NCBI GenBank assembly: GCA_037903355.1
Contig: JBAJFE010000030.1
Span: 62,001-126,000, forward strand
Direction: 5' to 3'
Length of the DNA stretch: 64,000 nt
DNA from: Trichuris trichiura
Lineage: Eukaryota > Nematoda > Enoplea > Trichinellida > Trichuridae
Below, piece after piece: positions 8,274-57,900 of the stretch (the first letter of the stretch is position 1; the number at the start of each line of letters is the position of its first letter). Under the pieces are notes generated by a model that worked only from the letters and a program-made list of their open reading frames with translations, did no database searches and was not told the DNA's origin. The position numbers and the translations under genes were made by a program.

Positions 8274-9200
8274 GCCACTTTTTTCAATTCCTTTACCCCT
8301 AAAAAAGCACACGAACATGTAGGTTTTACTAAGAAGGTTAGCAAGAGTGTTCTTGACGAAAAGTTGTAAATTCTAAATGGATAAACTAGACAACAAATTT
8401 CTTAGTCTTCTAATATAAAACAGCATGACTTTTATTAATACGAACTTTTTAAAGATTGAGCAGTTTCGGCAAGAGAACCCTAGTTTTATGGGGTTAACTG
8501 CTGCTCTTCTATGTTACTCAGTCGGCAGGAAGAAGAACGTTTCGATTGCACATGAATTAGAAAAAGCGGCACTTTCAGGACTAACACTGTTCCAACCTAT
8601 CCACCCGTACTATCATGCAGACGACTGGATAAGGTTAGCCCGAAAGTTCAATTTTTTTAATTCGCGTGAGATTATAAGTTTCCTACTTTTCACTTTGCAC
8701 AACCGAATAACATGATTAAGCCACAGTCAGCAATACGTGTTTCCAAAACGCAGCTTTTGGGCGAACATTCCCATTGTGACAGTTGGTTACGGATAATTCC
8801 TCTATTTTAAAGAGCTGTAACGACAGTGCCTGGATAGCATTAGCGCGTCTGCCAAAAAATTGTGCCCGAAACGATTGTAATCCGTACATTTCTTCGTACA
8901 AATTATGTGTATTGTTATGACGCACAAAAACGCCAAAAACATATATTGTTTTCACGGATTGCACGAACATTTACCCGGTAAAGAAGAAAAGTATAAGACT
9001 AAGTTTTCTTTGTCCAAGTTTACTCAGGGAAGAGATACCGTTGGAATTATAGAAAGCCGCAACTTTCGGGCGTTTCACCATTACTCGTCTCCAGAACTAA
9101 AAAACTTTTATATTCAGTTTTCGCTCATACTCGACGTTACCAACACAGTCTCTTGGTTACCGTTGACTAAGGGAGTTAGCGTGAGTTGCGCCTTACTCTG
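8274..9200. other. Start of the CWC22-GPD2 divergent spacer
   Basis: Between the CWC22 start codon and the first repeat. It should contain the CWC22 promoter and 5' UTR, but I cannot point to a specific element. The open frames at 8425-8715 (+) and 8905-9204 (+) show no family resemblance and no splice context I trust. Confidence 0.4.
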
Positions 9201-9300
9201 CTGACGACGGAACGAGAGCAGTTCCGAAACGTAAGGTATGCACATTGTTCTGTATTTTCTTTAACGATTTGCTCATCCATTCGTTGGTAGGGTATTTTGA
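9201..9300 (+). mobile_element. 5'-truncated miniature Penelope-like element
   Basis: Begins with CTGACGACGGAAC, a 7-base loop, then GTTCCGAAACG. It continues with TTCTGTATTTTCTTTAACG and TTTGCTCATCCATTCGTTGG, which matches the same part of the complete copy at 9610-9927. Neither inverted-repeat arm is complete and no target duplication is seen. Confidence 0.45.
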
Positions 9301-9609
9301 AGTTTACTTACAGATACATCCAACAGGCCAAACCCGTGAACCAGAAGACCAACTATGATATCAACTGCTCGTTAAAGTGCTCACCACCAACATCTCGGAA
9401 ACCTTAAGGGAAGTTGCAAACAAGGCAACCAAATCAATTGAAAAAACCATTTTGATTGCTAATAGGAAAGTAAAGGTGTGACTAGCAATTAATAAAATAA
9501 GGTGCTAATAATCAATAAAATAAGGTGCCACGAAAGAAAAATAAGTTAGCTGAAACGAGATCGCCTAATTTATTCCAGTGACAGGACTTAATTATCTAAA
9601 GTATCCAAG

Positions 9610-9927
9610 GGTCTTGAAGACGGGGTGCCTCTTAACGGGGCAATGGATTTTCATCACTACTTCGTACGGTATGCTTTCTTGCCCGTTGATGAGTTCTGAA
9701 ATTAAACCGAAGCAAATGCCCTACCAACGGATGGATGAGCAATTATTAAGGAAACCACCATCGCTGACGACGGGACAAGGTTAGTCCCGAAAGCTCCGAA
9801 CTGTTTAAGTACTTATTCTGTATTTTTCCTTAATAATTGCTCATCCATGTGTTGGTAGGGCATTTGCTTCGGTTTAATTTCAGAACCCATCAACGGGCAA
9901 GAAAACATACCGTACGAAGTAGTGATG
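9610..9927 (+). mobile_element. Miniature Penelope-like element with hammerhead-like motif
   Basis: Flanked by an 11-base direct repeat AAGTATCCAAG at 9599-9609 and 9928-9938. After about 40 bases comes the left inverted-repeat arm (about 9650-9753), then the CTGACGA...GAAAGCTC motif (9764-9796), then the right arm (about 9825-9927) ending exactly at the second direct repeat. The arms share GAAATTAAACCGAAGCAAATG-type sequence and the GGATGGATGAGCAATTATTAAGG block. The right part matches the 3' end of the Penelope-like copy near 47885-47960. Confidence 0.65.
9764..9796 (+). ncRNA. Hammerhead-ribozyme-like motif
   Basis: CTGACGA, one extra C, stem GGGAC / loop AAGGTTA / stem GTCCC, then GAAAGCTC. 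In hammerhead terms: core box 1, stem II of 5 pairs, core GAA, a one-pair stem III (A..U around GC), a possible cleavage after CUC, and a 3-base stem I (TCG before the motif with CGA after it). The unpaired C before stem II departs from the textbook core, so activity is uncertain. Confidence 0.4.
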
Positions 9928-9939
9928 AAGTATCCAAGA

Positions 9940-16900: not shown

Positions 16901-19900
16901 GGCCCGAAATCACATTATTGAGGTTAGCGCTGGCAAGCTGATCACTATTGCCGGTGGAAAGTGGACAACCTATCGTCATATGGCTGAAGAAACAGTGAAT
17001 AAAGCAGTAGAAGTTTGTGACTTGAAGCCTAAAAACGGTTGTGTAACTGCTGGTCTGATGCTGGAGGGTGGCCGTAAATATCATCCTCTGCTTTACATTC
17101 GGTTGGTACAAGATTTTGGACTAGACTTTGACGTAAATTAAGAAACGTCGCACAGGTGATCACATGAATATTTGTACATACCTTAGGTAGCAACTCACCT
17201 GGCTACCACATACGGTGACAAGGCATATAAAGTCGCTCGGATGTCAAGGTTAACAGGACAGCGGTATCCTATTGTAGGAAAGAAATTGCACAACGAATTT
17301 CCTTATATTGAAGCCGAAGTATTTTGATGTCTTGTTAGATTCGATCATCGTTTGCTGTAGTCTCGTTTCAGGTTATCTACGCTGTTAAAGAGTACGCTTG
17401 TACAACAGTGGACTTCCTATCCCGTCGCACCCGATTCGCTTTTCTTAACACTTATGCAGCAGAAGAAGCGTTACCCCGCGTGGTAGAATTGATGGGCCAG
17501 GAATTGAAATGGAATAAAGAGGAGAAAAAAGTAAAACCTTTTTAATTCTGTAAGCATGCTATCATTATTTTTACGTTTCCACAATAGCGCCAAATGGCAT
17601 TGGCAACAGAATTTCTCCAGTTTCAAATGGGAGCAAACGCTAGGCAGAAAGCCTATGCAGAAGCACCTTTGATGTTGACCCAGGAAGAGCGTGAAAACGC
17701 AATAAAATGCTTTAAGGAGGTGGACAAAGATCGTAACGGTGGCATATCCATGAATGACCTACGAAGATACTTTGAGGTAAAATGAGGTGTGCTATTTGTT
17801 GTCGTGTTTTACCGAATCTTTGTTCTTTTTCCTTCATCTTTATTATTCTTATGCTAGTAATCTTATATGGATAAACAGCCTGCTAAGCTAAAATAGTTTA
17901 CTTAGGACCAAGCTTTCATAATCGGCTTTGTCTCGTTATTTGGCATCAGTTCTACAATGGAAGGTAAAGAGAAGTCATATTCTTGAAAAAGTGTTTGGGC
18001 ACTTTATAAGCTCGCGAGTTTGAGTGTCTTCATTACTCTTCACATCGCATTTACAAAGTTCATGTGTAACCGTGGTTTTTTCATTGCAACCGAAATCTGA
18101 ATGCTCATAATTTCAAAAATCGAGTTTCTTCCAAAAGCCTAAACGAACAGCTTAAACGTTGGTGGATCAATTTTAAAAAAGAAAAAACGAGAAGCTTTCT
18201 AACGTTACGAAAGTGACTTTAAATGACTTGGGTGCCATGACCAGTAAGATGGAGGAAAAAAGAAACTGTAACAATAGTCTAATAAATAAATGCATAAATG
18301 AAAATGGTAAATACGTAGCAATTGTAACGGGTGCATAAGTTTTCATGGTAAGGTTTTTTACGTTCCGACCTGTCGATGACAAGCAAGACGGTTTCGTCTG
18401 CCCGCAAGCGTACAGTAACCAGACAGGTAAACAAGAAAACGCAGGTTGTAATACTATAATTAAACAAATTGCCAGTTGCTTTCTCTAATTTAAAGAGGTA
18501 AACATGGAGTTGCAGGTTTGTTATACTGTAAGTTAAGACGTCGGGGCTTCTGAGTGAAAAGCGAAATTAACACGTTTTTCTCGCTGAGCAGCCGCTGTTT
18601 CGTTTATGTAAACGTTGCTGGTAATGCTAGGAGCATTTACAAAACTTTGTACGCCATATTAAGGTATACTTAAGATTCTTATTCCGCTGCTTGAACCAAT
18701 TTTTCTTTTAACCAAGCTCGTCTTGCTTTTATACGTTTACGGAAACCTGAATCGGATAAATGTTGCATGAATAGAATAGGATCAAGATTCAATAGCAGTT
18801 GACAAAATTGTCTAGCATAATCAAGTGTACGTGAGGCTTGCATCGAACTACTTGAAAGAACTTTCCCGTTAACTTTGCCGATTTGCTTTTCTGTGCGTAC
18901 GAAGCCTGTATTTACGCACCCACTGGATAGATGCTGCACGAATGGGCTGAGGATTAAGGTTCACTACACGTAACGTAATCTTAACATAAAGTTAGTCAAA
19001 GTAGCACCTGCGCCAGGTGTTACTTGCGCATATCTATCGTAGCCCGAGCTTATAGCGTAAGCCAAATTTAAATTTCGCGTCGCAAAGAAAGTGCAAATAC
19101 GCTATATGATTACCCGTCAAATGCGATCGGAGAGTTAACCATCCACAGCTAGTGTGCCTTATCACATGTCCATCGATGGAAACAAAGAAAACAGCAATTT
19201 TATTTACAAAGTGACGAAGAACAATTAGATAGTACAATTCTATTTACAATTATATACAGAACGGAAGTCATATAGGCGCCCAGTAAATGGCCATGTCACC
19301 CAACAGTTTGTCAAATGGGTCTTCATTGGGACTCAGCCAGCGGCGCCATGTAAACTTGCACAGGTACGTGTCCAGCTCACCCCTGCGCTTGCCGCACTGG
19401 AGCTTGTTTAGGCGCTTCACTTGTACTCATAGGGATTTCACAGTCTGCTTTTGCGCCCATGTCACGGGGTGCACAAAATTGATGAAGCGACTCACTTTCA
19501 GGTGAGTGTAATCTTCCTAATATAACTAGTAATATGGCTTCTCCTAGGCGAGTGACCGCTAATCACTCCGCTCAAATTCATAGCATGTCCGTTCGCACAA
19601 AGTCTTTGTTAGTAATGGATTCCTTTCTCTTGAAGGAAAGGGATCGTTAAGCCTTCGTCTTCGAACTGATTGTAAAGAGAGAAAAAATGTTCGTCGACAT
19701 CGCTCGATATTAGAAAGCACACGATACTGGAAGTTTTCTGAGCACGACAGCTGCTCGCTTACAGTGCTACTTGCAAAATATTTGCATTTTACACAAGGAA
19801 CTACACAAAAACTGCAGAAAGCATTTTTCGAGCGTGCGTGAAAGTTATCGCTTTCATGAGGCGTACGCTTTTCTCAGGCCATCTGCCGAAAGCGACGTTT

Positions 19901-21892
19901 TCCACGCACGCTTGAAAAATGCTTTCTGCAGTTTTTGTGTAGTTCCTTGTGTAAAATGCAAATATTTTGCAAGTAGCACTGTGAACGAGCAGCTGTCGTG
20001 CTCAGAAAACTTCCAGTATCGTGTGCTTCCTAACATCGAGCGATGTCGACGAACATTTTTTCTCTCTTTACAATCAGTTCGAAGACGAAGGCTTAACGAT
20101 CCCTTTCCTTCAAGAGAAAGGAATCCATTACTAACAAAGACTTTGTGCGAACGGACACCCTATGAATTTGAGCGGAGTGAGTAGCGGTCACTCGCCTAGG
20201 AGAGGCCATATTACTAGTTATATTAGGAAGATTACACTCACCTGAAAGTGAGTCGCTTCATCAATTTTGTGCACCCCGTGACATGGGCGCAAAAGCAGAC
20301 TGTGAAATCCCTGTGAGTACAAGTGAAGCGCCTAAACAAGCTCCAGTGCGGCAAGCGCAGGGGTGAGCTGGACACGTACTTGTGCAAGTTTACATGGCGC
20401 CGCTGGCTGAGTCCCAATGAAGACCCATTTGACAAACTGTTGGGTGACATGGCCATTTACTGGGCGCCTGTATGACTTCCGTTCTGTATATAATTGTAAA
20501 TAGAATTGTACTATCTAATTGTTCTTCGTCACTTTGTAAATAAAATTACTGTTTTCTTTGTTTCCATCGATGGACATGTGATAAGGCACACTAGCTGTGG
20601 ATGGTTAACTCTCCGATCGCATTTGACGGGTAATCATATAGCGTATTTGCACTTTCTTTGCGACGCGAAATTTAAATTTGGTTTATGCTATAAGCTCGGG
20701 CTACGATAGATATGCGGAAGTAACACCTGGCGCAGGTGCTACTTTGACTAACTTTATGTTAAGATTACGCGACGTTACGTGTAGTGAACCTTAATCCTCA
20801 GCCCATTCGTGCGGCATCTATCCAGTGGGTGTGTAAATTCAGGCTTTGTAAGCATAGAAAAGCAAATCGGCAAAGTTAACGGGAAAGTCATTTCAAGTAG
20901 CTCGATGCAAGCCTCATGCACACCTGATTATGCTATAAAAGTTTTTCGACTGCTACCGGATCGCAATCTATTCTATTCATGCAGCCATTATGCGATGGTT
21001 TCTCAGGTTTTCGTAAGCTTAAAAAAGCAAGACGGGCTTGGTTAAAAGAAAAAAATGGTTCAAGCCGCGGAATAAAAACGTTAGGTACAGCTAAATATGG
21101 CTTACAAACCTTTGTAAATGCTCCTAGCATTACCAGCAACGTTTACGTAAAAGAAACAGTAACTGCTCAGCGAGAAAAACGTCTCAATTTTGTTTTTCCT
21201 TTTATGAGCCGCAACGTTTTTGGCGTCAGGTACGACAAACCTGCGTTTTTTGTTTACTTCTCTGGTTTACTGTGTGCTTGCGAGCAGATTCGGGACAGGA
21301 CCAACGAAGCTTTTATTCTGGAGCTTTCGGGTCCGGTCATGGCCCGTATTCAGCGGCTCTTTTTCCGCTAAGGATGGGTCAGTAGTGGACCTAAAAATTC
21401 CTGAGTGAAAACCTGATTACCAGAAGAAAGAGAAGAAGAAGAAGTGTCACCATGAAAAAGAACTTATAAAGTTATCAATTCCACACACCAGTATTACGCT
21501 ATAAAATTGTGCGCTTCTATAGAAAATAGCTGTATTTTCGATTTTAAAATTAACTACGGTTCCTCCATTGACTGAGCTGCCAAATGTTTGTTCAATTTTG
21601 AATTAATAGGAACGTGGCGAAAAGATAAATGAGAACGAATTGCACCGCTTGCTGGACGAAGTGGATTTAAATAAAAACGGCGAAATCGACTTGTGCGAGT
21701 TCTTACAGGTATGTGTGCCTCATCAGTCAATTAGCTTTTGTGAAGTTGCCAAACTTCATTTCATTTGTGTTTATGATTCTTCAGGTGTACAGCGGACTGA
21801 AAGGTGGCTGGGTATGTCAGAATCCATTTGCACACTATCTCAGTCACGAGATGAATGTTTTGACTCCCGAACGATCTGGAGGTGGCGTTTGA
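10953..21892 (+). CDS. GPD2: Mitochondrial FAD-dependent glycerol-3-phosphate dehydrogenase, 14 exons
   Basis: Oxidises glycerol-3-phosphate to dihydroxyacetone phosphate at the outer face of the inner mitochondrial membrane, passing electrons to ubiquinone. Exons: 10953-11060, 11762-11936, 11985-12109, 14693-14790, 14847-15010, 15059-15220, 16364-16508, 16570-16763, 16819-17132, 17187-17318, 17372-17530, 17588-17776, 21610-21708, 21785-21892. All phases close; 723 residues (human about 727). The N-terminus has basic residues and a hydrophobic segment (presequence/membrane anchor). FAD motif [10 protein letters not shown] starts near residue 77; [18 protein letters not shown] follows. The DAO-family C-terminal domain contains [12 protein letters not shown]. 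Two EF-hand loops lie at about 638-649 ([12 protein letters not shown]) and 674-685 ([12 protein letters not shown]), implying Ca2+ stimulation. Ends ERSGGGV like other animals. Introns 3 and 12 host a mariner relic and a large palindrome. Confidence 0.95.
12160..12270 (+). mobile_element. Possible pogo/Tigger-type MITE relic
   Basis: CAGTAGAACCTCGGTTGTCC at 12160 has a partner CCAGGACACAACCGAGT ending near 12270, forming an inverted repeat of about 15 bases. The CAGTARAACCTC start is typical of pogo-class termini. The right end has lost its last bases. It lies in GPD2 intron 3. Confidence 0.4.
13480..14570 (+). mobile_element. Mariner transposase relic in GPD2 intron 3
   Basis: Translation, with several stops and shifts, follows a mariner transposase end to end: [70 protein letters not shown], then [29 protein letters not shown], a [13 protein letters not shown] block, and [27 protein letters not shown]. 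In-frame stops (for example the TGA after DYLRL near 13830) and shifts make it inactive. It is in the same orientation as the host gene. Confidence 0.85.
15429..15650. mobile_element. Possible hAT-type non-autonomous relic in GPD2 intron 6
   Basis: Left part reads GTTTCCAAATGTCAGGGTCGCC and right part GCGGGCGATATCACTCACTTG followed by AGAATCACC, reminiscent of the CAGTGGTTCCCAAA / TTTGGGAATCACTG ends of the clear hAT element at 41994-42602. I cannot find a matching target duplication. Confidence 0.3.
19262..19505 (-). mobile_element. Merlin transposase C-terminal relic, left palindrome arm
   Basis: The minus strand reads [20 protein letters not shown], a stop where the family has W, then [33 protein letters not shown] and [14 protein letters not shown]. 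This is the C-terminal end of the same ISXO2-like domain seen at 7030-7560. The N-terminal half with the first catalytic residues is absent. Confidence 0.8.
20236..20475 (+). mobile_element. Merlin transposase C-terminal relic, right palindrome arm
   Basis: Mirror copy of 19262-19505, nearly identical, including the same stop codon at the position of the conserved tryptophan. The shared defect shows the stop predates the inverted duplication. Confidence 0.8.
21321..21353 (-). ncRNA. Degenerate hammerhead-like motif
   Basis: The minus strand reads CTGAATACGGGCC, a short loop, then GGACCCGAAAGCTC. The core G of CTGANGA is replaced by T, so it should be inactive. It is antisense to GPD2, at the outer edge of the palindrome. 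Confidence 0.3.
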
Positions 21893-33415: not shown

Positions 33416-34364
33416 AGGGTCTAGTATGTTGTCTCCCCACCGGAAGTTCAGGCAGCTACTTCAAAGCGTTATCTGCAAATCTACGGCGTAATAAATGGTT
33501 GTTATTGGCGCAACGGACGGACGTTATCTTCAGGTTTAGTGAAAGGATGGAATTCAGCAGGTGCGCATGCATTGTAGTTGCGGGAAACACAATGGGGTCT
33601 GCAGGTGTTCAAGCTGAGACGTCGTGTAGGAATTCGTGAAAAACATCGCAGGTCAACTTTCCGAGCTGAGGCGTGCCTTGGTAGACAGGGTAAATCTCAT
33701 TCTGGTTTATGTCTGTCCCGGGATCTAGTGACAACTTCCCATCGACAAGTGGAGGCACCGCAAAGAGGCACTGACGCCTTCTGCCTGATTAGGTACACCC
33801 AAGTGAACCCGTCGGATGCGCCTGCTGCGAAATCGACGCGTTGCCTTCGTCAGGGTGAGCGCCTGCGTTAGCAGTACATACGCTTTTTCCCTTTTTCCGT
33901 TACTCACTGCTTGCGTGTTCAGTGATCGCTAAATAACGTTAATTTGCGCCAAGCTTCTTGTCGTTTGCTTCACGGTCAAAACTGCAAAACCCAACAACAG
34001 CAACGAACACGCGTCATGTTAACGTTTAGGCTTAGGCTTAGGCTTAGGCTTAGGCTTAGGCTTAGGCTTAGGCTTAGGCTTAGGCTTAGGCTTAGGCTTA
34101 GGCTTAGGCTTAGGCTTAGGCTAGGCTTAGGCTACGGCAGGTCAGGAGGCCGGCAGGGTTATAGAACGCACTTGCAAACAATCAGCAGAACGGCCAACTG
34201 TTTCCAGATGTGCAGCGTTCCTTTGCTGATACGCATCGCTCGTATGTGTACACAGTGAACAATAGCTTAGGTCAGCCATTGTTCAGGTGACGTAGTAATG
34301 GTCACGTGACCGGCTTTGAAGTTGCCGCCTGAACTTCCGGTGGGGAGACAACATACAAGACCCC
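33416..34364. mobile_element. 949-base inverted-repeat element carrying telomeric repeats
   Basis: Terminal inverted repeats of 52 bases, 33416-33467 and 34313-34364, differ at 4 positions; they begin AGGGTCTAGTATG and end CATACAAGACCCC. A 6-base direct repeat GAAAAC flanks both ends (33410-33415 and 34365-34370), consistent with a target duplication. No transposase is recognisable inside; the interior includes the TTAGGC array. It lies just downstream of the transglutaminase gene's 3' end. The transposon class is not clear from the ends. Confidence 0.8.
34026..34132 (+). repeat. Interstitial telomeric repeat (TTAGGC)n
   Basis: Sixteen uninterrupted TTAGGC units (34026-34121), then one 5-base TAGGC, then one more TTAGGC. 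TTAGGC is the standard nematode telomere unit. Read in frame it encodes meaningless LRLRLR. It lies inside the inverted-repeat element 33416-34364, and is not at a chromosome end. Confidence 0.98.
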
Positions 34365-36909: not shown

Positions 36910-39900
36910 ATAAACGGCATCGGCTGATTTCGTAGCTGCCTCGACGTTCCCGAAGAAATTCAAGAAGACAGGACGAAATGCGCAGCTAGAATATAAGCTA
37001 TTTAGCCTTTTTCATTGGGTAGCCTATATAACGCGGAATTCAACTTTACGCGGTAAAATGCTCAAAATGTTGGACGAATCAACCGCGGATAACGAGGGCC
37101 GCCTGATATATATATATATATATATATAGGCTAAATAGCTTATATTCTAGCAGCGCATTTCGTCTTGTCTTCTTGAATTTCTTCAGGAACGTCGAGGCAG
37201 CTACGAAATCAGCCGATGCCGTTTTCCCAGTGATCTTTAAGTTCTTGAGGTTGAAGCGCTTCACGTATTTTGCTAGCCATCCTTTGCCAGCAGTAAACCT
37301 TTTTCTCTCGTTCTCTGCAACCACGCCAGAGAAGTGCTCATATAAGCTCATCGTTTTCTCCTGAATAACTTTCCCGTCGAGGGGGACATTCTTCCGCGAC
37401 ATGTCCTCTATCCAAATGCTTAGCGCTTTCTCAGCCTTGACGAGGACTCTGTTGCGAACTACAGCAGCTCTTTTCGCCGATGAAGGGTCAGAATACACGT
37501 TTCCTCTAGTCTCCGCTTCCTTCCGTTTTATCGTACGAATGCTGGATTCATAGTTTCTGATCCTGCGGCCCACTTCAGCAAATGATAATCCGCTTTTCAA
37601 AAGATCAAGGACATTTAATTTCTCATGAAGAGTGAGGACGCTACATTGTCTCTTAGCCCTAGAGGAACCGCTTACTTGCCTTCTGTCAGCCATCTTCCTA
37701 TGCGACACCAGAGAAACGACGCGAAAGTTCAGACTTACTATGCTGGAGGGAAACTGATGTTCGCGCACAGCGAATAGGCTCGACAACGCGCACGAAGCAA
37801 TTACGAACAATCAGAAAAATGGCAAGGCCTTATTAACATTGTGCACGGCTAGAGAGCGTTTTAGGCAGAAAAGGTCTTTCGCGCCCGGGCAGACGATCAC
37901 GCTGCTGCTCAGGCAGGCAACGACATTACTGCAACTATAATGCCAGCCAGCAGTGCGCATGTTTTTGTGAAAAGATGACGTCACTATTTCACGCCGGACG
38001 AACCGCGTTGTATAGAATCCGCGGATAACGAAGGCCCGCCTGTATATGTATATATAGTCGGCCCTTGTTATCCGCAGTTTATTCGTCCAAAATTTTGCGC
38101 GTTTCATCGCGTTAAGCTGAATCCGCGTTATATAGGATACTCTATGAAAAAGGCAAAATAGTTTATATTCTAGCCGCGTATGTCCTCTTGCCCCTTGAAT
38201 TCTTTCTGGAACGATGATCATATCCAGTGATCCTTCGAAGCTTGGCACTAGAAAATCCAGCTACGGAATAATGACATCAGTGAGACTGCCCTTGTCCACT
38301 GGGGTTAGCCTTCAGAGTCCAGGCCGTTAGATACAAGAAGGGATAAAAGTAAGATGTTCTTTCTTTAAACGCCTTGAAAACGCTTTGCTTTAATGAGCTA
38401 AGCGATGTACTGTTGCGCAGAATGGGTACAGAGGAGGGGAAATATAAAACACAGAGGCGCACTTAAGCAGAAATATTGAACATCGCATAGAACACATCCA
38501 TATAGAGCAAAACGTTTACGGCAGAAACGTTTGGCGTATCAGGAATCAATTTGCCCACTTTCTGTAGGTGGGCGCAGATCCCCTGGAGACCGGCCAGTCC
38601 TACGGTTTCAAGAAATTGTTAGTAGCGGAACTTCTCTCGTTAAAATGTTAGGCTCCGCAGCTGCCGGAGCTTCATTTAAAAACGTTGTTATAGGAAGCTG
38701 TCTCTCCCTTTTTTCACTTTATCGAATAAATCTTGTAGCGGCTTCAACGAAACCGTTATTTGTCGTGTAACCATGATGCCACGTTCCATGGATGAATCAT
38801 AGGCAGCAATCATATCCTTTAGGCCCTTTCCCCGCCGGAAACAACTGGCAAGCTTCTGCAGCGTCCAATCCGTGGGTGTTTAAGCTACTGCAACTTCCAT
38901 AACCTCATCATCGCGGCCGGTAGGTGATTGCATCAGTTCCTTGAGTTCCTCGTTGGAGGACGGTTTTCCACAATCTCCTACGTGCTCCCTGATATCGTCT
39001 TCTATCACATCGGAAAAAACCTCGCCTCCTAACTCCTTGGCAATATTCACTATGTCAATTACCTCCTCATCGATGGCACCTAAGTCCTCGCATTCACTGA
39101 CTGCGTCTCTCCACAAACGCTTCCAGCAACCACTGACTGTTCTTGGCTTTATCTGGTGTACTACCGTGTAAAAGATGGCGTCACTATCTCACGTAGAACA
39201 TTTCGCGTTGTATAGAATCCGCGGATAACGAGGGGCGATTGTATATGTATCTACAGGTACTTTTTGCGTAAGGTGAGAATTTGGTCACTTGAAAATCCTG
39301 GAAAATCTGGTCTTATATGAAATCGCGTTGTAGGAGATACTTAAAGCATGAGATAACCACAATCTGGTTCGAAGCGTCAGAAAGATTGTTTGCTTCTAAA
39401 CAACAATAGAAACAATCGTAAATAAGCTGCGTTTAAAAAAGAATTATTCTGTATCTGAGTTATCTGTTCAACCTCTATGCACCATGAAGGTATGGATCCT
39501 TTCTCACAGGATTAGAATAACATGTTTTTTTCTTTTTATAGCGATGATATATTAACTGGGTAACTTTTGTGATAGAACTTTACAGCGGGTAGAGTTGAAA
39601 GCATCTTTCAGGAGCTGTATGCTTTCATTTTTAAAATATGCAAAGTGGCCCGTTCAATTCTAACATAAATGACTTCGTACTTGGGTAAGAACGGAGGCTC
39701 ATTGGGCTCATGTTTTTATGTCAGTCTTTAGTTAAGGGTGAACTGAAGTCTTGTTTATTAGATGTAGAAGGAAGTGTTTCGTTGTCCTGACAGTGTTTCT
39801 TCATCACAGTAAAATAAAATTCCAGCGTCTTTTGTTTTGCAAATGTTCTTCTTTCGTACAGCACTTGCCTATACAGATGACTCCAAGCTAGCTCAGATAG

Positions 39901-42900: not shown

Positions 42901-45900
42901 TCATCGGTGTCCGCCCATACCTGTGGACCTCAATTTCGTTGTCGTCAAAAGTTACAACAGTCCCTGGCACACGCACTCGAAAGAAGTTTAGCTGTTGTTA
43001 AAGAACCTCTCCTTTTTGTTATTCGCGGAAAGAATACAACCATTCTTCTGAGTTCTGTACTTTTATTAACACTTTAGTTAGTCCATGGTTTTTTGAATCC
43101 ACTGTTTTTTTACCATAGCTCCTTTCCCATTATATCTTAAGCAGCCATGTTTTTTTGAAAGACTTAACTATATAGCAGGTTACTAACTTCCCATGGAAAC
43201 CTGTCTTCATTAATCTGAAAACCGTTATCTTTCAATTCGTCCAGCCATCAGTTTATAGAGTTTGAAAGATGTTTGTGCTCTGACTGCTACGAAAAGCAGA
43301 AGCACGCCTTCAAGAAAATCTTGATAAAGCGTTTTGTTAGACAACCTTTGTTCGCAATTGCACGTCACAAAACGACCAATGGACAAGACGGCCTGTCAGC
43401 GAACCGTCCTGTCGGCGAAAAGAGTATACTCTCCATCCTTCGGAGTAAGCAGAGATTGATCTGGCCCTTACTTGAGTTTGCCATGCGAGCATGACTTAAG
43501 ACAAAGAACAATTTAGAAAGGCTTTACAACAGACACAACCCATCCTTCGATAGGGATGAAGGCTTAACAGTCAGCAAGGCAAGCTCACGCACTCGCCATG
43601 TCTCCAAATGCATTCACATCAGCAGTCAATTTCAACGCGAGAGATACCAGGGACAAACATACCACAGTCAAGTCTGTTGGACAAATTCATCCTCTTAATA
43701 CGTAACCAAAGTATTTCCACCTCACCGACTTTAACCTAAATGTCGCTTTGCCCATGGTGAATTATCTTCCACGCTGAAGACTGAAGACTGATGATTCTGA
43801 AGGCTAAATGCCCCATTATACAGAGATTTTCTACGTACGTTACTGTACCGTGCACAACACAGCACAACCGTAGAAGAATATTCTACGTGAAACCGTAATC
43901 CTAATACTGAAGAAGCGTGTTTTTAAGATCATCATTTAGAATTCGAAATTCAAGCAAATCACATTTCTCCATCAGTCTGTCCGCATTTAACTGTACTGAA
44001 AAAACATTAAAGCCTCAAGCAATTTATCCATTTTCCACATACGCATTTTTAAGGCCACTTATTGCATCCAATTTTATGTAGACAAACGTCGCATCCATAC
44101 TAACAGGATAAAAGCAAAACAGGGATGGTATAGCTCCAGAAGGGTTTATAAAACAACAAACTACTACAAGTAAATGCAATATCTTTCATCTTCTGAAAAT
44201 TTAAAGTTTTTATTTCCCTGTTTTATTTCCCTCAGCAAGTAGCACTAATAGCATTAGCCATCCCGGAGATGATTTTTCGCATTGCTATAAACATGACAAA
44301 CTGACAGAACTTACCAGCAGACAGTTTGTAGCAACGTGTCACATCCAGACGATCTTCATTATTCAAACCATAAAATCTACGACCAGGAAGCTTAGTAGTG
44401 AGGCACGTCCCGATTCTGCACGTTTAAATAAAAGTGGTTAAAGCAAATTACGCAATATGCATTGGAAAAAGAACTCATGCAAATGGACGATGAAAGCGCT
44501 GTATTTAAAAACATGAAAATAACCCGTGAATAACTGAAGGATTAGAAATAATCAATATGATGCATTAAGAACTTTCTGGTCGACTTCTTACGATTTGTAA
44601 AACGCAAAAATCATAGATATATTTAAACTCAATGTCAATTGACTAGTGTGGAACAAGTAAGTAGCCAAATATGTTTCTGAACAGGAATAGTACATCTGAA
44701 TAAACTATTAATCTTCTGATGAATCAGCGACGAATAAAATTTTATACAAGGATTTGTTTTCGTCTGATAACATTTATGCGCTGTTTTTCCAGGGCATGAG
44801 TTGCTTATGATACAGATTAAACGTCGAATTAACTTTTGTTGCAGCTGTAGAGGTAAATTCTAGCTGCCGCATTGGTTACTGCAAACAGAAGCTATCTATT
44901 GTACTCCGCTGTAAAAATGCGTACGACAACAAGTTTTAGTAGCTTTCAGAATTCCTCTGTCTCCAGTGTTAGAGAAATAAAGGTGGGTTGTTTTACCATC
45001 CTTTCAGTGACAGCGGAAACAGAACACTACCGAAAGCCATAAAAAGATTTGTTACCCTTCCTGTATTTACAGTCAGTCGATTAACCGGTTTTATCCAGAG
45101 CATACGCAATACCTGTTACGAAGTTCCAGGTATTCTACCGAAGACATCAGCTATTTCATCCCAAAAAGATATCACCCAGTTCTCTGCTTTAGTGCTACTG
45201 TGTGTAACCACACGACAGCAAAAGTACGAAAAGCTATACAATGCAGCTTCACTCCGTGATCTTGCTTACGAGATAAACCTAGTGTAACGTACCCGTTTGG
45301 GTCGACTTTCACAAGTCTTTCTTCTCCAACCTCATTTTCCACCCAATAACATTTTTCAGCGTTCACTTCGGCAATGACGCAAGCCGTTTCGTATACAAGG
45401 TCAATGCGGCCCTCTTTCACTGCAGTTACAGGAGCAGGACCAATCCGAGTAAAACCTAAACAGGATGAACAAGTATAAATAGGACATAAATAACTATGAA
45501 CGAGTTAAATTTTAATTTTGTTTTTGATCTCTTCATGTCTTCTTCCTGTCTTTTGTAAGTGTATCTGTAATAACCAGAATAAACGCCTTTGAGCAAGTTG
45601 CTAGGAAATTCATACAGACTAAACGTACTAATCTTCAGGACGCTTTAGTCCAGCCGTCAGCGTAAGATAGGGACGTGTTTATTCCGTTGAGCATATATGT
45701 AGACCTCCTAAGGGCCAAAGGGTCAGAGTAGCACGGTATGGTGCAGCAATGGTATTTAATGATAAGTGCACTGCACACCACACTAACCCTCCGTACTCTT
45801 GTCGTGACTGATGCATTGCTGCAAATGAAGAGGGCTTATTTTATGTGAAAAGATTGAAGTTGTTTTTTTCACGTTATGATCATCGGCTTGAGGTCGAGTG

Positions 45901-48900
45901 AAACTGAAATGTGCGTTCAATGACTGAGAATGCTTTCTTTGTAATTCCTATGACGTTCTCAGGGGGATTAGCCTTGGCGGTCACCCTAAATGTACTGTTT
46001 AAGACTCCTTCAGCCTCTCCTCTGACTACCCGTACTGATTAAGCGCATACCCTATATACGGCTGTCAGACTTTTCAGATAAAATGTTGCCCATTTCCATA
46101 TGTCAAGAGCGTTGCAGGCACATTTGATTTGATAAATGACGCCAGGTTTCCTGTCAGAAGGAACCAAGACCGTAGTCCGTTGTCACTCCGTAGAATGGAA
46201 CGAATGCTAAGGGAACTTTTAGAAGGTACAATGAAATTAAGGGACCATCTTAAGTGTCTGACTTGTTCACTTAATTCATTGTAATAGAGAAGAAACGGAA
46301 CGGAATGAAATTTCACGTTTGTTGCAGAAACAGATGCCGACGACCTGCGTAACTTGAGAAGTATAATAGCTTTAATGAAACCTTTGGGGCATCTACCGTT
46401 AATTATCGTGGCCGAAAAGTGGTATGACTGAATGTACGAAAGGATTGGATCACAGATAGCATGGGTCTGACCAACCATAACGGTGACGTTGACTCTTAAA
46501 CAGATGATGGGAGGTGAAATTTAGGTGCCTGTCCAAAGGAGTTGATTTTCTAGATGCAGTAGGAAGGCTGCATCCCTTCTTAATGATTAAGACTCGTCTA
46601 AAAAAGTGGACTGCCATTAGACCTCCATCTCTCAAAAGATAAGTAGAACACATTTTCTCCTTGATCACCACCAGGAAAGAGGAAGCCTTTCTAGGATATT
46701 AAAGTAATCCTGTCTCGGTTAAAACTGAACAATGGAGATACACTCCGACAACAGCTGCCATTCTTACAAATCTTTACCATTATGGAAGAATGCGGCCTTA
46801 AAGTTATTGCATCTAGAAAACAAACCCATTTGGACAGGCACCCAAGTTTCTCCTCTCGTCATCCCATTAAGAGTCAATGTCACCGGTATGGTTGTCAGGC
46901 CTTCGCTATCTGTGATCCAAACCTTTTGCACATTCAGTTACATCACATCTCGGTCATGTTAATTAACAGTAGGCACACGAAAGGTTTCGTTAAATCTATT
47001 ACACTTCGCAAGTAAGGGAGATCACCACCACCTGTTTCTGCAACAAACGTGAAACTTCATCCTGCTCCGTTTCTTCTCTATTAGAATGAATTAAATGAAC
47101 AAGTCAGACATTTAGAATGGTCCCTTAATTTCAAAAGTTCCTGTAACATTTGTTCGATTCTGCAGAGTAACAAAGGACTACGGTCTTGGTTCCTTCTGAC
47201 AGGAAACCCGGCGTCATTTATCAAATCAAATGTGCTTGCAGTGCCCTCTGCATAAGCAGATGGGCAACACTTTATCTGAAAGATTTGACAGCTATATAAA
47301 AGCGTTCAGTCAGTACGGGTAGGTAGAAGAATGGCTGAAGGGGTCCTAAACAGTACATTTAGGGTGATCGCTAAGGCTAACCCCCTGAGAACGTCATAGG
47401 AATTATAAAGAAAGCTTTCTCAGTCATTGAACACGCGTTTCAGTGTTCACTCGACCTCAAGCCGATGATCAACCTGGAAAAACAACTTCAATCTTTTTCG
47501 CATAAAATAAGCCCTTTTCATTTGCAGCAATGCAAACAAATATCAGTCACGACAAGAGTACGGAGGGTTAGTGTAGTGTGCAGTGCCCTTATCACTAAAT
47601 ATCACTGCTGCACCATGCCAGCATTATGGTACGGATAAGCTACCCGTTCAAGCTTTTATTAATATTGCGAAGCTTTAAAAAGCTTGAACGGGTAGCTTAT
47701 CCGTACCATAATGCTGATTCACACACCCGTTAGGAGAAATCATGTTTTCAAAGCAATGCTGCACTGTACCGTGCTAATCTGATCCTTTGGCTCTTAAGAG
47801 GCCTATATATGTGTTCAACGGAGTAAACACCTTTCTATCTTACGCTGAAGACTGGACTAAGGCGTCTTGAAGGCTAGTACGTTTATTCTCTGTGAATTTC
47901 CTTGCAATTTTCTCACCTATTCATTCGTTGGTAAAGCGTTTATTCTGGTTATTATAGATACGTTTACAAAAACAGGGAGAAGCCGTGGAAAGATCAAAAA
48001 CAAAATGAAGGTCCATCACCCTGAGTGCCAAGCATCTGGTCTTTAAGAAAAAAAATAGGCTAAAAATAGGTGTTACATATTGATCTTCTGCAATACAATG
48101 CCGTTTGCGTTGAGTAACAACCGTTGATATCAAAGAAGTAAAAGAATTTTTATGTTTTGTCCCACCTTCAATGAAAAACAGAACGGCTCTATACTGAAGC
48201 GGGAATCTGATCACTTCCTGAAGCTGCGGACATCTGCACATATCACAGTGGGGATCGCGCTGACACGGTGGACTTCCTACAAGGCCTACCTTAGGTAGTG
48301 GACGCCACATGATAATAGCATACACATACGTAACTTTGATGTATATATATATTTTTGCTTCTATACTTGTCCCACACTGTAACGTCCAGGATGCTTTTCT
48401 TGTGACAACGTTACTTTACCAGCGAGCCTGTCGCAACCTGATCCTGGTTGGGACACAGATGACTCCGGACATCAGACCGTAAGTTCTTTTTCTTAGCCTT
48501 AGCCACTGTAACCTTGTATATGCACTCACAGCAGTTAATTTGTTATCTGAAACGTTTAGGAGCAGGGGTATTCCAGATTTAAGTATGTACGAGATGTTCC
48601 CCAAGTTACTGTGCATTTGTACATGGTTACTATTGTTTCATGCTATGAGTATCGAAGCGATTTACTGACAGCGTTTTGATACGTGCACCTTAAACGTTCC
48701 TATGCATACATTTACAGAGATAAAGATAAATATGTTGTACTCGGCACAGATTTAACATTCACTTACTGGTCCATGCACGACTTGAACACGTAGCACAAAG
48801 CTACTTTCAAGCAATGCATCTAAGAACTGAACAACTTCAACAGATTATTAAAGGAGCCCTGTGTGGATGTAGAAGCACTCTGCTTGAAGAAATTTTAGAT

Positions 48901-51900: not shown

Positions 51901-54900
51901 AGAACTGTTACCGCTAGTTCATACCCGAAGGTAGTAAAGGATAAAGTGATGCCCTAAAAGAAAGCGGTGGACCTTGTGTTCATGCAGGCTGCAGTATGAA
52001 TTCATTTAGTAACCTCTGTGTGAAATTGTGTTAAAGAAAATGTTCCCCATTTGTAGATTGGGAAGAGGGGAACTATCAAATGGCCACTGAACAGTTCTGA
52101 ATCTTTTCCCGTAGGCTTTCGTTTATGGGATGTTATCAAGGGTCGCGCGTTTGACAAGAAAATTAATTCCGCAGAAACTCTCAAAACGGCAATTGAATCA
52201 ACATTCGATTAATAACATATGATCCGTGTGGATTTACGGAAGCGAGTAGATCAGCCAGAGACGAAAAGGCTAGAAAAGTGTACCGCAGTCAGCGACGTGC
52301 AAATGGAATTGCGTTAGCCTATATTTTTTTCTATTACTTGTTAATTTTGCTCCTTTTCAACTTCTTTAGAAGGAACAAAAATGTGCGGAGCCCATTCTCA
52401 AAGAAAAAATACAGTGACCTCTGCTCGTCCTGTATAAACGATACACAGAGTAACGCTGTTGCATTGGTATGTATGAGTTAAAGCAACCAATAGTTCAGAC
52501 GGAGCTTCCAGGAAGGAGAACTCGTTGTTAAGGATAGGCTGAATTTGGGGCGTTCTGTAGTAACTCAAGCAGACAATTTTATACGCTGTGTTTGAAGAAC
52601 ACTCAGCAGTGACGAAGTGTGAACTTTCGAAAGAACTTTCTGCATGCCAGTCCATCGTAAATTGTGATGGAAATTACATTAGTATAAAAGTGAAAAGATA
52701 TGCTGTTTCTGCAGTGCACATTTGCGCTGATGAATGATGTCATAGTTTTTCTGCTTTTCGCAGCTTAGACGGAAAAGGTACGCAATCTGCAGCAAGCTAC
52801 TGTGATTGATAAAAACCGGATTCTGCACTACAGCCAGAAAAGCAGAATGCAGTAGATAGTCCCAAGTCAAGGTACGCAGATTCAACTGAACCCAACATCC
52901 ATGGAAAAACTGTTCTGCCCTGCGTGCAGAAGTTCAGAAAATTCACCGTGTCGCGGGTTGCAGCAAACTTTCAGAATATCACTCAACACTACTATTGCGT
53001 GTAACTTAGGAAACTTGCACAAGCTTTGCGACGTAAGATGCAGAAGTTTGCATCAGAAGAATGTGACGTTCTCCTATTGTAAGATAACGTGTGACGTAGC
53101 AAGATGAGGCCCCATTCGTCAGAGGAGTTGGAGAAAGTACCAAACACAACGTACTCCCAGATTACTGCGTCTTCCAGCCAATTCAGCATCAGTTTGCTGG
53201 TCGACACTTCTTCAGAACTGAGCGTGACTAAAAATGGATGGTCGATTTTTTTGAGAAAAACGCGCCTGCATCTGTTGCCATAGCATCAGCATAGTGCCAG
53301 GTAGTTGAGATAAGGTTTTTTTAATTCAACGAAAGCTATACTGAATGAATAATGTTCTTGAAGATGTGATGCTTTGGTACGGAACCATAAGTTTTCATAG
53401 TGATATGGCTTTATTACGGACGGGTCACGATAGGCCCAAAAGCTCCGGAAAAGTAAAGTTTATTTTACATATCAACGGGACAGATTCTCCGTAATAAAGC
53501 CATATCAATAATGTTCTTTCATTTTATTTTTTGGAACTTATATCAGGTTTTGCTAAAAAAGCGACAAAAGCATTGCTCCTACCTAAAAGATTCACTTTCC
53601 CAAACTTGACAGGCTCAAAAGCCTTGAACGTGCATATTCACGTCTGGTTTTACCAAGTCTAAAGCTCAACTAATTAATTCCAGAAGTTGAGGGTTATTGT
53701 GCGCATATTCAGTATGCTCGCTCTTATAAATGAACTGCTAAATCATTTGGTAGTTAGATTTCCTCTTAAAATTACGGCGTTACTAAGTAAACTAATGGGT
53801 ATTCAAGTGCTTCTAAAAGCACAAAAGCTCTAGCAATATGCTACAAAGGCGCTTTTAAAATGAAGCACTAATCCAAGCATACTCTTTCAATTTAGTTATT
53901 AGTAATAAACGTGCTTTAATTGCTTTGAAAACGTAATTCCTCCTAACGGGTGTGTGTAATAGCATAATTTGTACGGAAACTCCCCGTTCGAAAAACGTTT
54001 AAATATTGCTTTTTTTCCTTTAAAACGACCCAAGTTCCCGTGGTTTAAAGCACTATTCCCACATAAAGGGCGTGCCAGCAATCTCTGCCATCTACTTGCG
54101 CTGAAGACGGGGGCAGGCGATCCCCGAAAGCTTCGCGATTAAACGTTTTTCGAACGGGGAGTTTCCGTACAAATTATGCTAAACGTGCTTTAACTTTTAA
54201 CGCAAGAATGAAAACGAATTTCACGCAAAATTGATGTTCCCAGGCAAAAATTATGGTGAAACAACCAGGTTACTACGACTAGGTAGCGAATGTCATATTG
54301 ACAATGACTGTTTGGCATATACAAATCTACTGAAGCAGTATTTTCCGAACACTTTAAAGGAAATTCGACTTTTCTAAAATGTCTGTTGCATTTCTAGGAT
54401 TATAAAAGTAAGTCTAAGCAATTCAACAATGGTCTCAGTAGTCAGCTTGACTTCAGGTTTGGAATAAGTTGATCATAACCAAAAAACGTATGAGCTTAGA
54501 AAATGCTGTATTGGGTACTACACTTTTCAGCTTTCCAGGAAACTATACTTCCTTTATCTAAGGGACTGGTCCTAAAGTTCATATGGGGTGAACTGTGCAA
54601 AACTATAAGTAAAAACCAATGAGTGAAGCACTATATAAATGGAGGAAAAATCCTAAATCAATTCATACCAGATTTTGTCAAGAGTTTCTTCTTCATCCAC
54701 CTTACCAGATTTTCTGATATGTACATCAGTGGCCATTAACTTCTCCGAATCATGGGCTGCCTGGTAACAAGTAATGATTCGTGTTGGAATGCCGATGCAG
54801 CGACATACTGAGGAAATAATGTAGCAATAAACGAATCCTGTTTAATACGTACTTGTAGTCATAACTCCAGCGAACACCCAACAGTGGCCGTAACTGATTT

Positions 54901-57900
54901 GCCTTCCCGTTTTGGCGAATTGCTGTAATATTTTCGTGCTCCCTGTCCATTCGGTCGGCGATGTTCCAGTAAAATAATTTGCTGCCCAACTGCCCTCTAG
55001 TACACTATATCCTTCTGATGACTGGATCTGTAATGCAAAATAGCGATTACAACACAGCAGTTCGAACACAAAACTTCTAGGGTAAGGTTCATTCTTTCCA
55101 TGTGGCGCGGCTAATTAAGTTTTGTTAAACGAAGGAAACCGCTTCCACTTCCAGGTCAGATTCTTCAGTCACAAGAAGGGTGTTTCAATGTTAAGCTCCC
55201 CTACTACCTATATTAGCTGCGATTTTCATGAAACGACTTGATGAGGTAGCCTTCACCATTGGCGACATGCGTGACAGCTCGTTTCTGTATACAAGATGTC
55301 GGTATCTGCGGTAGAGAGAAGGCTGAGAACACACCCTGGCCGCCGTATCGGTCATCTCAGTATTCGCGGTTGAAAACCTGCCCAAAATATAAAAGAAACT
55401 TTCTATAGGTAAACGAGTCATGATTTGCACTGTAGGGCATTTTCAATAATAGGAACGAATCATGCACTATACTGCCATGTTCCGCATGAGACACGTGAAT
55501 CATTCCTTTGTTCAGTTTATTTATGCTGGCCACACTATACTCGTATATCTACTGATCACTTACTAACTGCTTCGGTTATTGGATCGACTGTCTTAATACC
55601 ACAGATTTCGTATTGAAGTAACCCATGTTTTATCTAATAAAGACTTTAAACAGAAATAGGAGTGACAGTTATATGTATCTGTTTATTAATTTTGATAATG
55701 AAAAGTGGGAGTACTTGACGAGCAAAGGCTCAAGAAGCGCTTATCAATGGAAGTGAAGGCCTTGATCAGGCTCCCCGAATGTTGAAGAAATTTCATAGTT
55801 TACGTACTCTGCCTTCAACATACAGGGCTAGCAAAAAAGGCCTACATCAATGTTTCTCAAGGTCAGGGTCGCCTGGGTCCCCCTGTGAACGTTTCCGAGC
55901 GTTTGGCCTCCCCCCAATTCTGATTAGTCGATTTCGAGCGCGCTGATTGGCTGGATGGGAGGACGGAGGGCAGCCGGGACGTCATAATGTAGGCGCTGCA
56001 CACAAAGTTCTGTGGGGAAACGTTTCCCAGATAGTGTGTCGAACATTTACTTTCTCACTTCTGAGCTGGCTGCACCTCGTGGTCCTCCCTTCCAGCCAAT
56101 CAGTGCGGGGCGCAACAGCATGCAGCTTTCTCTTGGGCAGAAAGGCACAATATCTGACTCGCAGACCATACATTCGTATGCACTTCAACACGATCGCCCA
56201 GGTGGGGCACATGCCCCACCGTGAGAATCTCGGGTCTACATCATTCACTTCAGTTCGATTCGTCAGGTGTGCATTAGATCCTCACCTTGGGAAGTTGATA
56301 ATGTCATAGCTTTTATTGCGGGATGTTTATGATTGAAGATCGAACTTCTTTGGCGGCAGGGATTGAGTTTCATTATGTTGTTTACCGCTTTTCCTGTTCT
56401 TTCGTCGGTTCGAAGTACAAGTAATAAACGGTTTTAATCGTACACGAATGAGTAAATGGAGCTTTCGGCGCTGACCTTGTCCTGTCATTAGCTTGAGGCC
56501 CTTTACATTACGCTGACGACGGGAAAACGTCAGAGCCGAAAGCTCTGTTTACTCACTCATGTAAGATTAAAACCGTTTATGATTTTTACTCCGCACTTAT
56601 GAAACAACAAGAAAAACCGTAACTAACTTCATAGAAGATGTCATTGTAGTTGTTCTGTTTCACTGTTTGAGCACAGGGTCATTTATTACTGCCATCAGTT
56701 ATTATTGCTTACCTCATGTTGTATTTACTTGTAAATTGGGTTTTTTTATGGGCAGAAAGGAATACGTAAAAGCACAGTACAGCCGAACCGCTCGTATCCG
56801 GACAGTTTGAAACCAGGGGTCGCGCAGATGCGCGGGGTTTCCGGATAGGGCTCTAATGTATGGTGCAATTGGAATGCAGGTTCAATCCACGTGAATTTAA
56901 GTCGCTGTTGTTCACTGACACCTGTGGACGTGGTGGGCTTAGGTTGCGTAAGCTCAAAGTAGCACCTAAGCTGTGGTTGACCTCAACAGATTGCGACCAA
57001 CAGAAATTAATTTTGTAAAGAGTTGCAGGTAGCGTGCTCGGAAGTGACTGGAAGACAAGCTGTTCTGGTTGTTCCTGTCAGTGACAAAATGCTTTTGGTG
57101 CATCAAACTCATTTTTGGCATACGCTTAGGAAGTTTAACGTTCCAAGTATCGTTTAGTTCTAGACAAGATAGCAAACGCTCGAGAAGTCCTACTCATCCT
57201 CCAGAGACAAAAGCAATGAACTATAGTACGTGGGTGACCTAAGAATGGTAAAGTACTAGCAGACAACAGAAATCGTCCCAAACGATGGTTCGTCTTGTCA
57301 GTGGGCCATAGCTTCAAAGAAGAATAGCACTTCAAATTTAGCCCGGTGCGCGCCATATTTGAATGAAAAATGATTAGAAAAAAGAAAAGAGCGTATAGTA
57401 ATAGGCGGTGATGAAATAGCCTCCTGAGCTTTACTGCGTATGGTCAATCTATGGACACCTTCAGATATGATGGGCCCAGATACGAGAGGTTTTACTGTAC
57501 GTACTGCGACGAAACGTGCGGCGTTCTGAAAACTCCACATTTTTGTGTGCTGAGAAACAAGCATTTACCATCCTCTTTTTCAACGAGAGCACGCCGTTTC
57601 TAAAATTTTTTATGTGATAAGATTACACTCTGTTACCAAAACAATCCGTCCCTCGATTAATGAACAGCGAGAAATATGTTACCATATCAGACAACGCACG
57701 GACGACAAAAATGGGATTTGAGCGAAGTGGAAACGGCAGAGCGCTTCTGTTGAGTACAGAAATGCAAGCTTCTAGAATGCCTTCTTCGAACTGGAAACGG
57801 CGAAAATGGATGGTCAGTAATTAATGAAGATGAGCAATGTACTTGACCAAAAGACCAGAAACATGGGATTGGACAGTTAGAGCTGCCACGCCATATCTTT

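Follow-up and report, generated by a model that had tools for sequence, protein, structure and literature searches.

Penelope-like elements (PLEs) with inverted ends are known from the rotifer Adineta vaga, whose Penelope copies carry an inverted repeat with a TATA box inside it and a tail of 31 bp (PMC3846280). As excerpted, that paper has the repeat covering the first 12 codons, or up to 22 when the tail is included, and its authors put forward self-priming as the cause. For PAc, a Poseidon-type PLE of Anolis carolinensis, the main text reports that both target strands are cut and extended, that reverse transcription starts at two internal sites 111-118 nt into the open reading frame (ORF), and that the tail is the interval between them (PMC11167929). 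In vitro, the start sites used by PAc did not differ between the two strands. The minimal hammerheads of PLEs are summarized in a review as retaining stem I and stem II, with helix III absent (PMC6155905).

Here we describe short inverted insertions in the whipworm Trichuris trichiura, found in a 64,000-nt stretch (positions 62,001 to 126,000 of contig JBAJFE010000030.1) that is referred to below as the window. Like the A. vaga Penelope copies, they combine a head-to-head inverted repeat with a one-sided tail, a TATA box and target-site duplications (TSDs), which were 8-10 bp in the rotifer cases examined. However, the rotifer repeats are described as framing an ORF or captured sequence and several solo repeats there are without TSDs, whereas whipworm copies that have two arms, TSDs and no body are common, and ends at a presumed cap site occur. 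With PAc, as its main text describes it, the whipworm insertions share AT-rich targets and a hammerhead-like core in the leader region and, on the model proposed below, two internal starts in the early ORF, a tail that spans the interval between them, and cutting and extension of both target strands. They differ from it in that the PAc hammerhead straddles the ATG, while the core of whipworm lineage A lies about 160 nt upstream of the first start, which is itself beside the ATG. PAc copies are also described as tandem, and that main text includes neither inverted body-less products nor a pairing of one start with each side of the target.

Metazoan retrozymes, in the portion of the account available (PMC7229834), are likewise small, non-autonomous and hammerhead-bearing, occur in PLE-holding animals and have TSDs of >4 bp when present. 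Unlike the whipworm insertions, they are arranged as direct tandem repeats, have canonical hammerheads of type I and are expressed as circles; the whipworm copies that we read are inverted, with a minimal core in place of a canonical hammerhead in each repeat. The whipworm core, without helix III, is of the kind that the review gives for PLEs (PMC6155905).

A survey of titles and abstract openings, which does not establish absence from print, showed among the entries listed no body-less inverted PLE and no study of Trichuris PLEs, and the excerpted text of a 2026 D. virilis paper (PMC12910113) has nothing on inverted structure. The sequence-only reading of the window had suggested that non-autonomous forms this small are not a described class in nematodes. 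As far as these sources go, the inverted repeats, the one-sided tail and the TATA box are all known in the rotifer (PMC3846280), and it is the body-less two-armed form that we did not find described. Inverted PLE ends and tails are thus already known, while the body-less forms and their presumed cap-site ends appear to be new. This is not a new element family; it is a new and informative form of PLE insertion. We consider it quite probable that each insertion is the product of two-ended, target-primed reverse transcription of a PLE.

Inverted insertions in the window

Four insertions built on a common plan had been noted from the sequence, and all four are present at or near the places given for them. 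Element A spans 9599-9938 on the forward strand, including 11-bp TSDs (9599-9609 and 9928-9938; AAGTATCCAAG). Its lead, or tail (9610-9649, reverse strand), is the reverse complement of an ORF start, MKIHCPVKRHPVFK, which continues in frame in the relative L052. The tail-side leader cDNA occupies 9650-9754 on the reverse strand, with its x end at -104, and the tail-less leader cDNA occupies 9755-9929 on the forward strand, with its y end at -176; both positions are counted back from the start 1 proposed below. The two arms, 9650-9754 and 9825-9929, are 105 nt long and match at 96%. A candidate minimal hammerhead-like core, consisting of stem I, CTGACGA, stem II and GAAAGCTC, lies at 9761-9799 on the forward strand. 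Some 300-400 nt before A, at 9200-9297, there is also a decayed piece of PLE leader that has a separate hammerhead-like core at 9201.

Element B (53348-53518, forward) has 12-bp TSDs (53348-53359 and 53507-53518; AATAATGTTCTT), a lead of about 42 nt and arms of 19-20 nt. Its tail (53358-53400, reverse) is, by similarity to A, the reverse complement of a putative ORF start, and a probable hammerhead remnant lies at 53420-53449 (forward), where the copy stops within the core. Element C (53906-54193, forward) has TSDs of 14 bp (53906-53919 and 54180-54193; TAAACGTGCTTTAA). The tail of C (53920-53961, reverse; lead about 42 nt) resembles that of A in the same way, its 43-nt arms (53960-54002 and 54139-54181) are 100% matched, and a predicted minimal hammerhead-like core, CTGAAGA...GAAAGCTT, is located at 54096-54138 on the forward strand; L009 has the same core.

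Element D, including its duplications, spans 47606-47770 on the reverse strand. Its tail (47717-47756, forward) therefore appears in sense orientation, again as a putative ORF start by similarity to A, and its 39-nt arms (47619-47657 and 47678-47716) match at 100%. An exact 8-mer, TGCTGCAC, is found at 47606-47613 and 47757-47764. D is located within one arm of a large palindrome, and the other arm provides a built-in empty site (45683-45800, reverse) that aligns with the sequence on either side of D and contains a single target, TGCTGCACCATACC, compared to TGCTGCACCATGCC on the left of D and TGCTGCACTGTACC on its right. The duplication at D is therefore real. Based on the single target in the uninterrupted arm, the 8-mer is probably what remains of a decayed 14-mer (47606-47619 and 47757-47770), which would account for the few bases separating the 8-mer from the arm. 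The palindrome that hosts D is itself large and imperfect (45512-48009), with arm blocks 80-92% complementary.

The duplications had been put at 8-13 bases. This range suits A, B and D (as an exact 8-mer) and falls short for C, which has 14 rather than 13. A hammerhead-like motif or its remnant, claimed for all four, does occur in all four; the whole core (CTGANGA...GAAAGCT) is present in A and C only, and D retains just its last bases. A probable fifth element of the same kind, at 56372-56632 (forward), has decayed 121-nt arms (78%) and a hammerhead-like core at 56513, and is apparently an older insertion.

Several other features of the window were recorded. A 2.6-kb palindrome at 18556-21198 has inner arms of 888 nt that are 97% complementary around a 32-nt loop, and its ORFs are short. 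TTAGGC, the repeat unit of nematode telomeres, occurs 18 times in an array at 34026-34133; the window lies inside a 151-kb contig and the array is internal, not at the contig end. Finally, an ORF at 37079-37810 with CENP-B_N and Tc5-type transposase DNA-binding domains adjoins AT repeats.

Copies across the assembly, their tails and the parent element

We searched the 72.7-Mb assembly that contains the window and found relatives of every query: at least 112 matches for A, at least 85 for B, at least 94 for D and at least 84 for a stretch with both B and C. An end-pairing test was applied to 40 loci and the window, covering lineages A, C, C2 and D, with B outside its scope. This test found 85 element ends, of which 62 could be paired by TSD into 31 insertions and 23 were unpaired. 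L015 and L016 are a single insertion copied along with its flanks, so the 31 represent 30 events. TSDs reached at least 11 nt in 28 of the 31 copies, while no mismatched pair out of 920 reached 10 nt or more (31 of 920 reached 8 nt or more), which places the duplications beyond chance. They vary between about 8 and 15 bp and are 70% AT, compared to 58% for the window; one 24-nt match falls in an ATT repeat and is uninformative. PLE copies that end in ATT/TTA microsatellites were also seen (L012, L040, L047).

A second built-in comparison is provided by L021, where an A copy has inserted within one arm of a C2 copy; the intact C2 arm has the 14-bp target once and the filled arm has it twice. 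The uninterrupted counterparts at L021 and D thus show insertion together with target duplication. Copies from across the genome had been expected to keep consistent boundaries and to lack the behavior of DNA transposons, and both expectations held.

Inverted arms flanked by target duplications would also be produced by MITE-like DNA transposons with terminal inverted repeats, or by solo remnants of these. However, instead of the fixed symmetric termini and constant TSD of such elements, the whipworm copies have asymmetric ends, no fixed arm length and TSDs of variable length, and identical ends bound copies with reverse-transcriptase frames. We give this explanation almost no credence.

Those longer copies point to the parent element. 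The ends of element A recur on L031 (about 3 kb) and L033 (about 3.9 kb), and both of these contain interrupted reverse-transcriptase frames directed away from the lead, which upholds the Penelope origin suggested from the window sequence. RVT_1 (Pfam) matched a piece of L033 above its cutoff (33.8 bits versus 29.6), identifying a reverse transcriptase. In L031, one piece scored 27.1 bits, below the cutoff, and the other had no match. Three T. trichiura fragments match the reverse-transcriptase fragment of L031 at 95%, 93% and 85% identity across 67%, 41% and 48% of its length, respectively; for the T. suis and T. muris proteins listed, identity to it is 31-78%. Pfam found no GIY-YIG match in L031 or in six of seven homologues, and found one above cutoff in P0096, where the GIY-YIG stretch aligns with VYVINCDCNASYIGETGNT of L031. 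By this alignment, the predicted endonuclease may be GIY-YIG-like. Several Trichuris homologues are also named GIY-YIG.

A lead of about 40 bases had been recognized from the window, and it is present; that description was incomplete, since the lead of A is the reverse complement of ORF codons 2 to about 14. In L052, the A tail reads unbroken into the N-terminus of the reverse-transcriptase protein, IIQRAYGAPLNQAAKQLEQMSIKITLTKGKLNFLLQ, which begins an open frame of 887 aa. Besides L031 and L033, four copies of the A lineage are listed with open frames of 851-887 aa. Because the A version runs on in frame into the L052 ORF, the lead is, by its sequence, the PLE tail. In sense orientation the leads of B, C and D encode peptides similar to that of A; for these it is the similarity that was seen, and the continuation was seen for the A lineage. 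Conservation of the lead across lineages is, on this reading of the sequence, conservation of a protein start. The window insertions are products of PLEs, with several lineages each yielding their own.

The one-sided lead of the sequence-only reading proved general. The 30-40-bp tail by which PLEs are recognized was found at exactly one end in 31 of 31 TSD-paired copies, with none having it at both ends or at neither, in a sample taken from tail-containing queries and the best candidates among their matches, so that tail-less copies are under-sampled. Four aberrant inverted pairs, picked from the A match list because their ends looked aberrant, break this rule: L053 has two tails, L054 and L055 have none, and L056 has a shortened one. 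By eye, no clear TSD was seen in any of the four. In two C2 copies, L019 and L027, a TG run at the border of tail and arm has grown into a microsatellite, and the pairing test missed their tails as a result. The one-tail rule appears to be new.

Leader arms, their ends and the hammerhead-like core

The ends of the arms were examined in 17 short copies of lineage A (12 TSD-paired copies, the A-like L017 and L053-L056; L030, L047 and the second, duplicated copy in L029 were left out). Positions were counted back from start 1, with two arms per copy. Twelve of the 34 cDNA ends fall at -184 to -180, nine of them exactly at -182, where a uniform distribution of the 31 ends that lie from -260 to -90 would place about 0.9 (P about 3e-11 in a binomial comparison with this uniform null, for a bin picked after the data were seen). 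Alternative measurements move a few ends by a few bases. The peak is a lineage A result; in C and C2, low-complexity alignment breaks spoiled most ends, with two C ends agreeing at -93/-94. In A, the TATA box TATAAATA lies at -211, so that -182 is 29 nt past its first T. Based on this distance, which is as expected for a transcription start, -182 is presumed to be the RNA 5' end, or cap site. A template cleaved at the hammerhead was considered and rejected: none of the 34 ends comes within 3 nt of -133, where the cut is predicted.

The peak also bears on whether the short copies arose from longer PLE copies by internal deletion and not as short insertions from the outset. Intermediate forms such as L030 and L032 do exist, but deletion would not so often put ends at -182, on either side and 29 nt past TATAAATA, and we regard it as highly improbable.

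Lineage A arms range from 34 to >850 nt and grade into ORF-bearing copies. The arms had been taken for a terminal repeat, a description that fails on length, as there is no fixed repeat in this lineage; in lineage A the arms are leader cDNAs. The junctions between arms were all different (17 of 17), with 0-38 nt of filler, and these short copies were therefore made separately. In L042, the filler repeats neighboring element sequence, suggesting end-joining with template switches. Where copies resemble each other (the pair in L029, and L015 with L016), they also have a common TSD and flanks, showing that they are duplicated segments.

These results weigh on the idea, contained in the sequence-only reading, of a single family of miniature elements, which would be transcribed and remobilized as units by an autonomous PLE. 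Such copies are numerous, and those of A retain the leader and the hammerhead-like core, as a mobile unit might. Nevertheless, no junction is common to any two of the 17 separately placed short A copies, the only look-alikes are the duplicated segments, and the gradation of arm lengths into ORF copies has no place in a family of fixed units. We find a true non-autonomous family very unlikely, and the claim of one family gives way to several PLE lineages.

The two arms within each copy were compared at four variable sites (three in L017) in another set of 17 copies, which overlaps in part with the first, includes long copies and excludes L053-L056. The arms of the same copy agreed in 13 of 17, compared to a mean of 3.5 and a maximum of 11 in 100,000 shuffles; the four discordant copies include the A element of the window. 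Mean divergence between arms was 2.4% within a copy (18 copies) versus 4.0% between copies. The simplest reading is that a single RNA, or RNAs transcribed from a single source locus, gave the cDNAs of both arms, although later gene conversion between arms could mimic shared variants.

The core CTGANGA-stem II-GAAAGCT is recurrent, with 87 distinct occurrences of CTGANGA...GAAA in the examined loci and the window. Stem I is fully paired (3/3) in 50 of the 87, compared to a mean of 20.7 and a maximum of 34 with shuffled partners, and stem II (5/5) in 45 of the 87, compared to a mean of 10.7 and a maximum of 20; the set takes in decayed and chance hits, and kinship among copies inflates both counts. 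It should also be noted that the stem II register was changed after a first choice that gave four or more pairs in just 20 of 89. Helix III is missing from the core. No hammerhead model of Rfam matched the window at E values up to 1 or any of nine loci at E values up to 5, and the microRNA matches to D and L034 are long hairpins under the curated thresholds. Fold energies for three core segments gave z-scores of -3.67, -0.59 and -0.84. As only one of these is notably stable, the case for a hammerhead rests on the core and its pairing, which together place a minimal hammerhead-like motif, with a predicted cleavage site, in the terminal repeat, as expected of a PLE.

Proposed copying from both sides of the break

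Self-priming, in which one (antisense) template would double back to copy itself, would also give a head-to-head inverted repeat. It was the hypothesis published for rotifer Penelope, and the palindromic junctions and head-to-head repeats described for A. vaga speak for it (PMC3846280). Variants common to both arms are what a fold-back would produce, and the filler of the L029 insertion is partly palindromic. However, a fold-back permits only one side to be the longer, yet either can be: the longer arm is on the tail-less side in 10 of 17 short A copies, on the tail side in 3 of 17, and in the other 4 of 17 the arms differ by no more than 3 nt. Self-priming also leaves unexplained why, in all 31 paired copies, one arm has 36-42 nt of ORF at a fixed place and the other arm is without them. 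We consider it unlikely. The whipworm data agree with the A. vaga anatomy, as far as that paper's available text describes it, and favor priming from both sides of the break instead, which the biochemistry of the Anolis PLE would permit.

In the two-ended model, the PLE endonuclease would make a staggered cut, leaving 3' ends on either side of some 8-15 bp; we infer this double cut from the target duplications and from double-strand cleavage by the Anolis PLE. Both target strands would then prime on the element RNA, away from the 3' end of that RNA, using two internal starts in the early ORF. The first, start 1, would lie a few bases past the ATG, and start 2 about 36-42 nt deeper in the ORF. 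If one DNA end takes start 1 and the other takes start 2, the tail is left at a single end. Each cDNA would be copied back through the 5' leader, which contains the minimal hammerhead, and in lineage A would often halt at the presumed RNA 5' end, 29 nt past the TATA box, consistent with a capped end at -182. Finally, the 3' ends of the two cDNAs would be joined, probably by end-joining, in a head-to-head junction that contains microhomology or filler. Each insertion would draw on one RNA or one source locus; ordinary messages would give body-less copies, and read-through or tandem RNAs the long ORF copies.

The four aberrant pairs described above count against this model, as does the Anolis enzyme, whose start sites in vitro were no different on the two strands, so that a strict one-tail rule needs an extra constraint. 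Tentatively, and with more doubt than confidence, we suggest that one RNA is read twice, with the first primer occupying start 1 and forcing the other to start 2, 36-42 nt downstream. If true, this would yield the obligatory one-tail asymmetry, the variants shared between arms and the inverted plan of the class.

Two-ended leader copying offers a concrete and testable account of the inverted shape of PLEs. The short copies have no body to hide their ends, and many display both cDNAs, from the start site to the presumed RNA 5' end. Through such copies, genome data and a simple assay could settle the question of PLE integration. They also suggest where leader-only litter may come from: should priming take place internally, where the ORF begins, an ordinary message could give only its own 5' leader.
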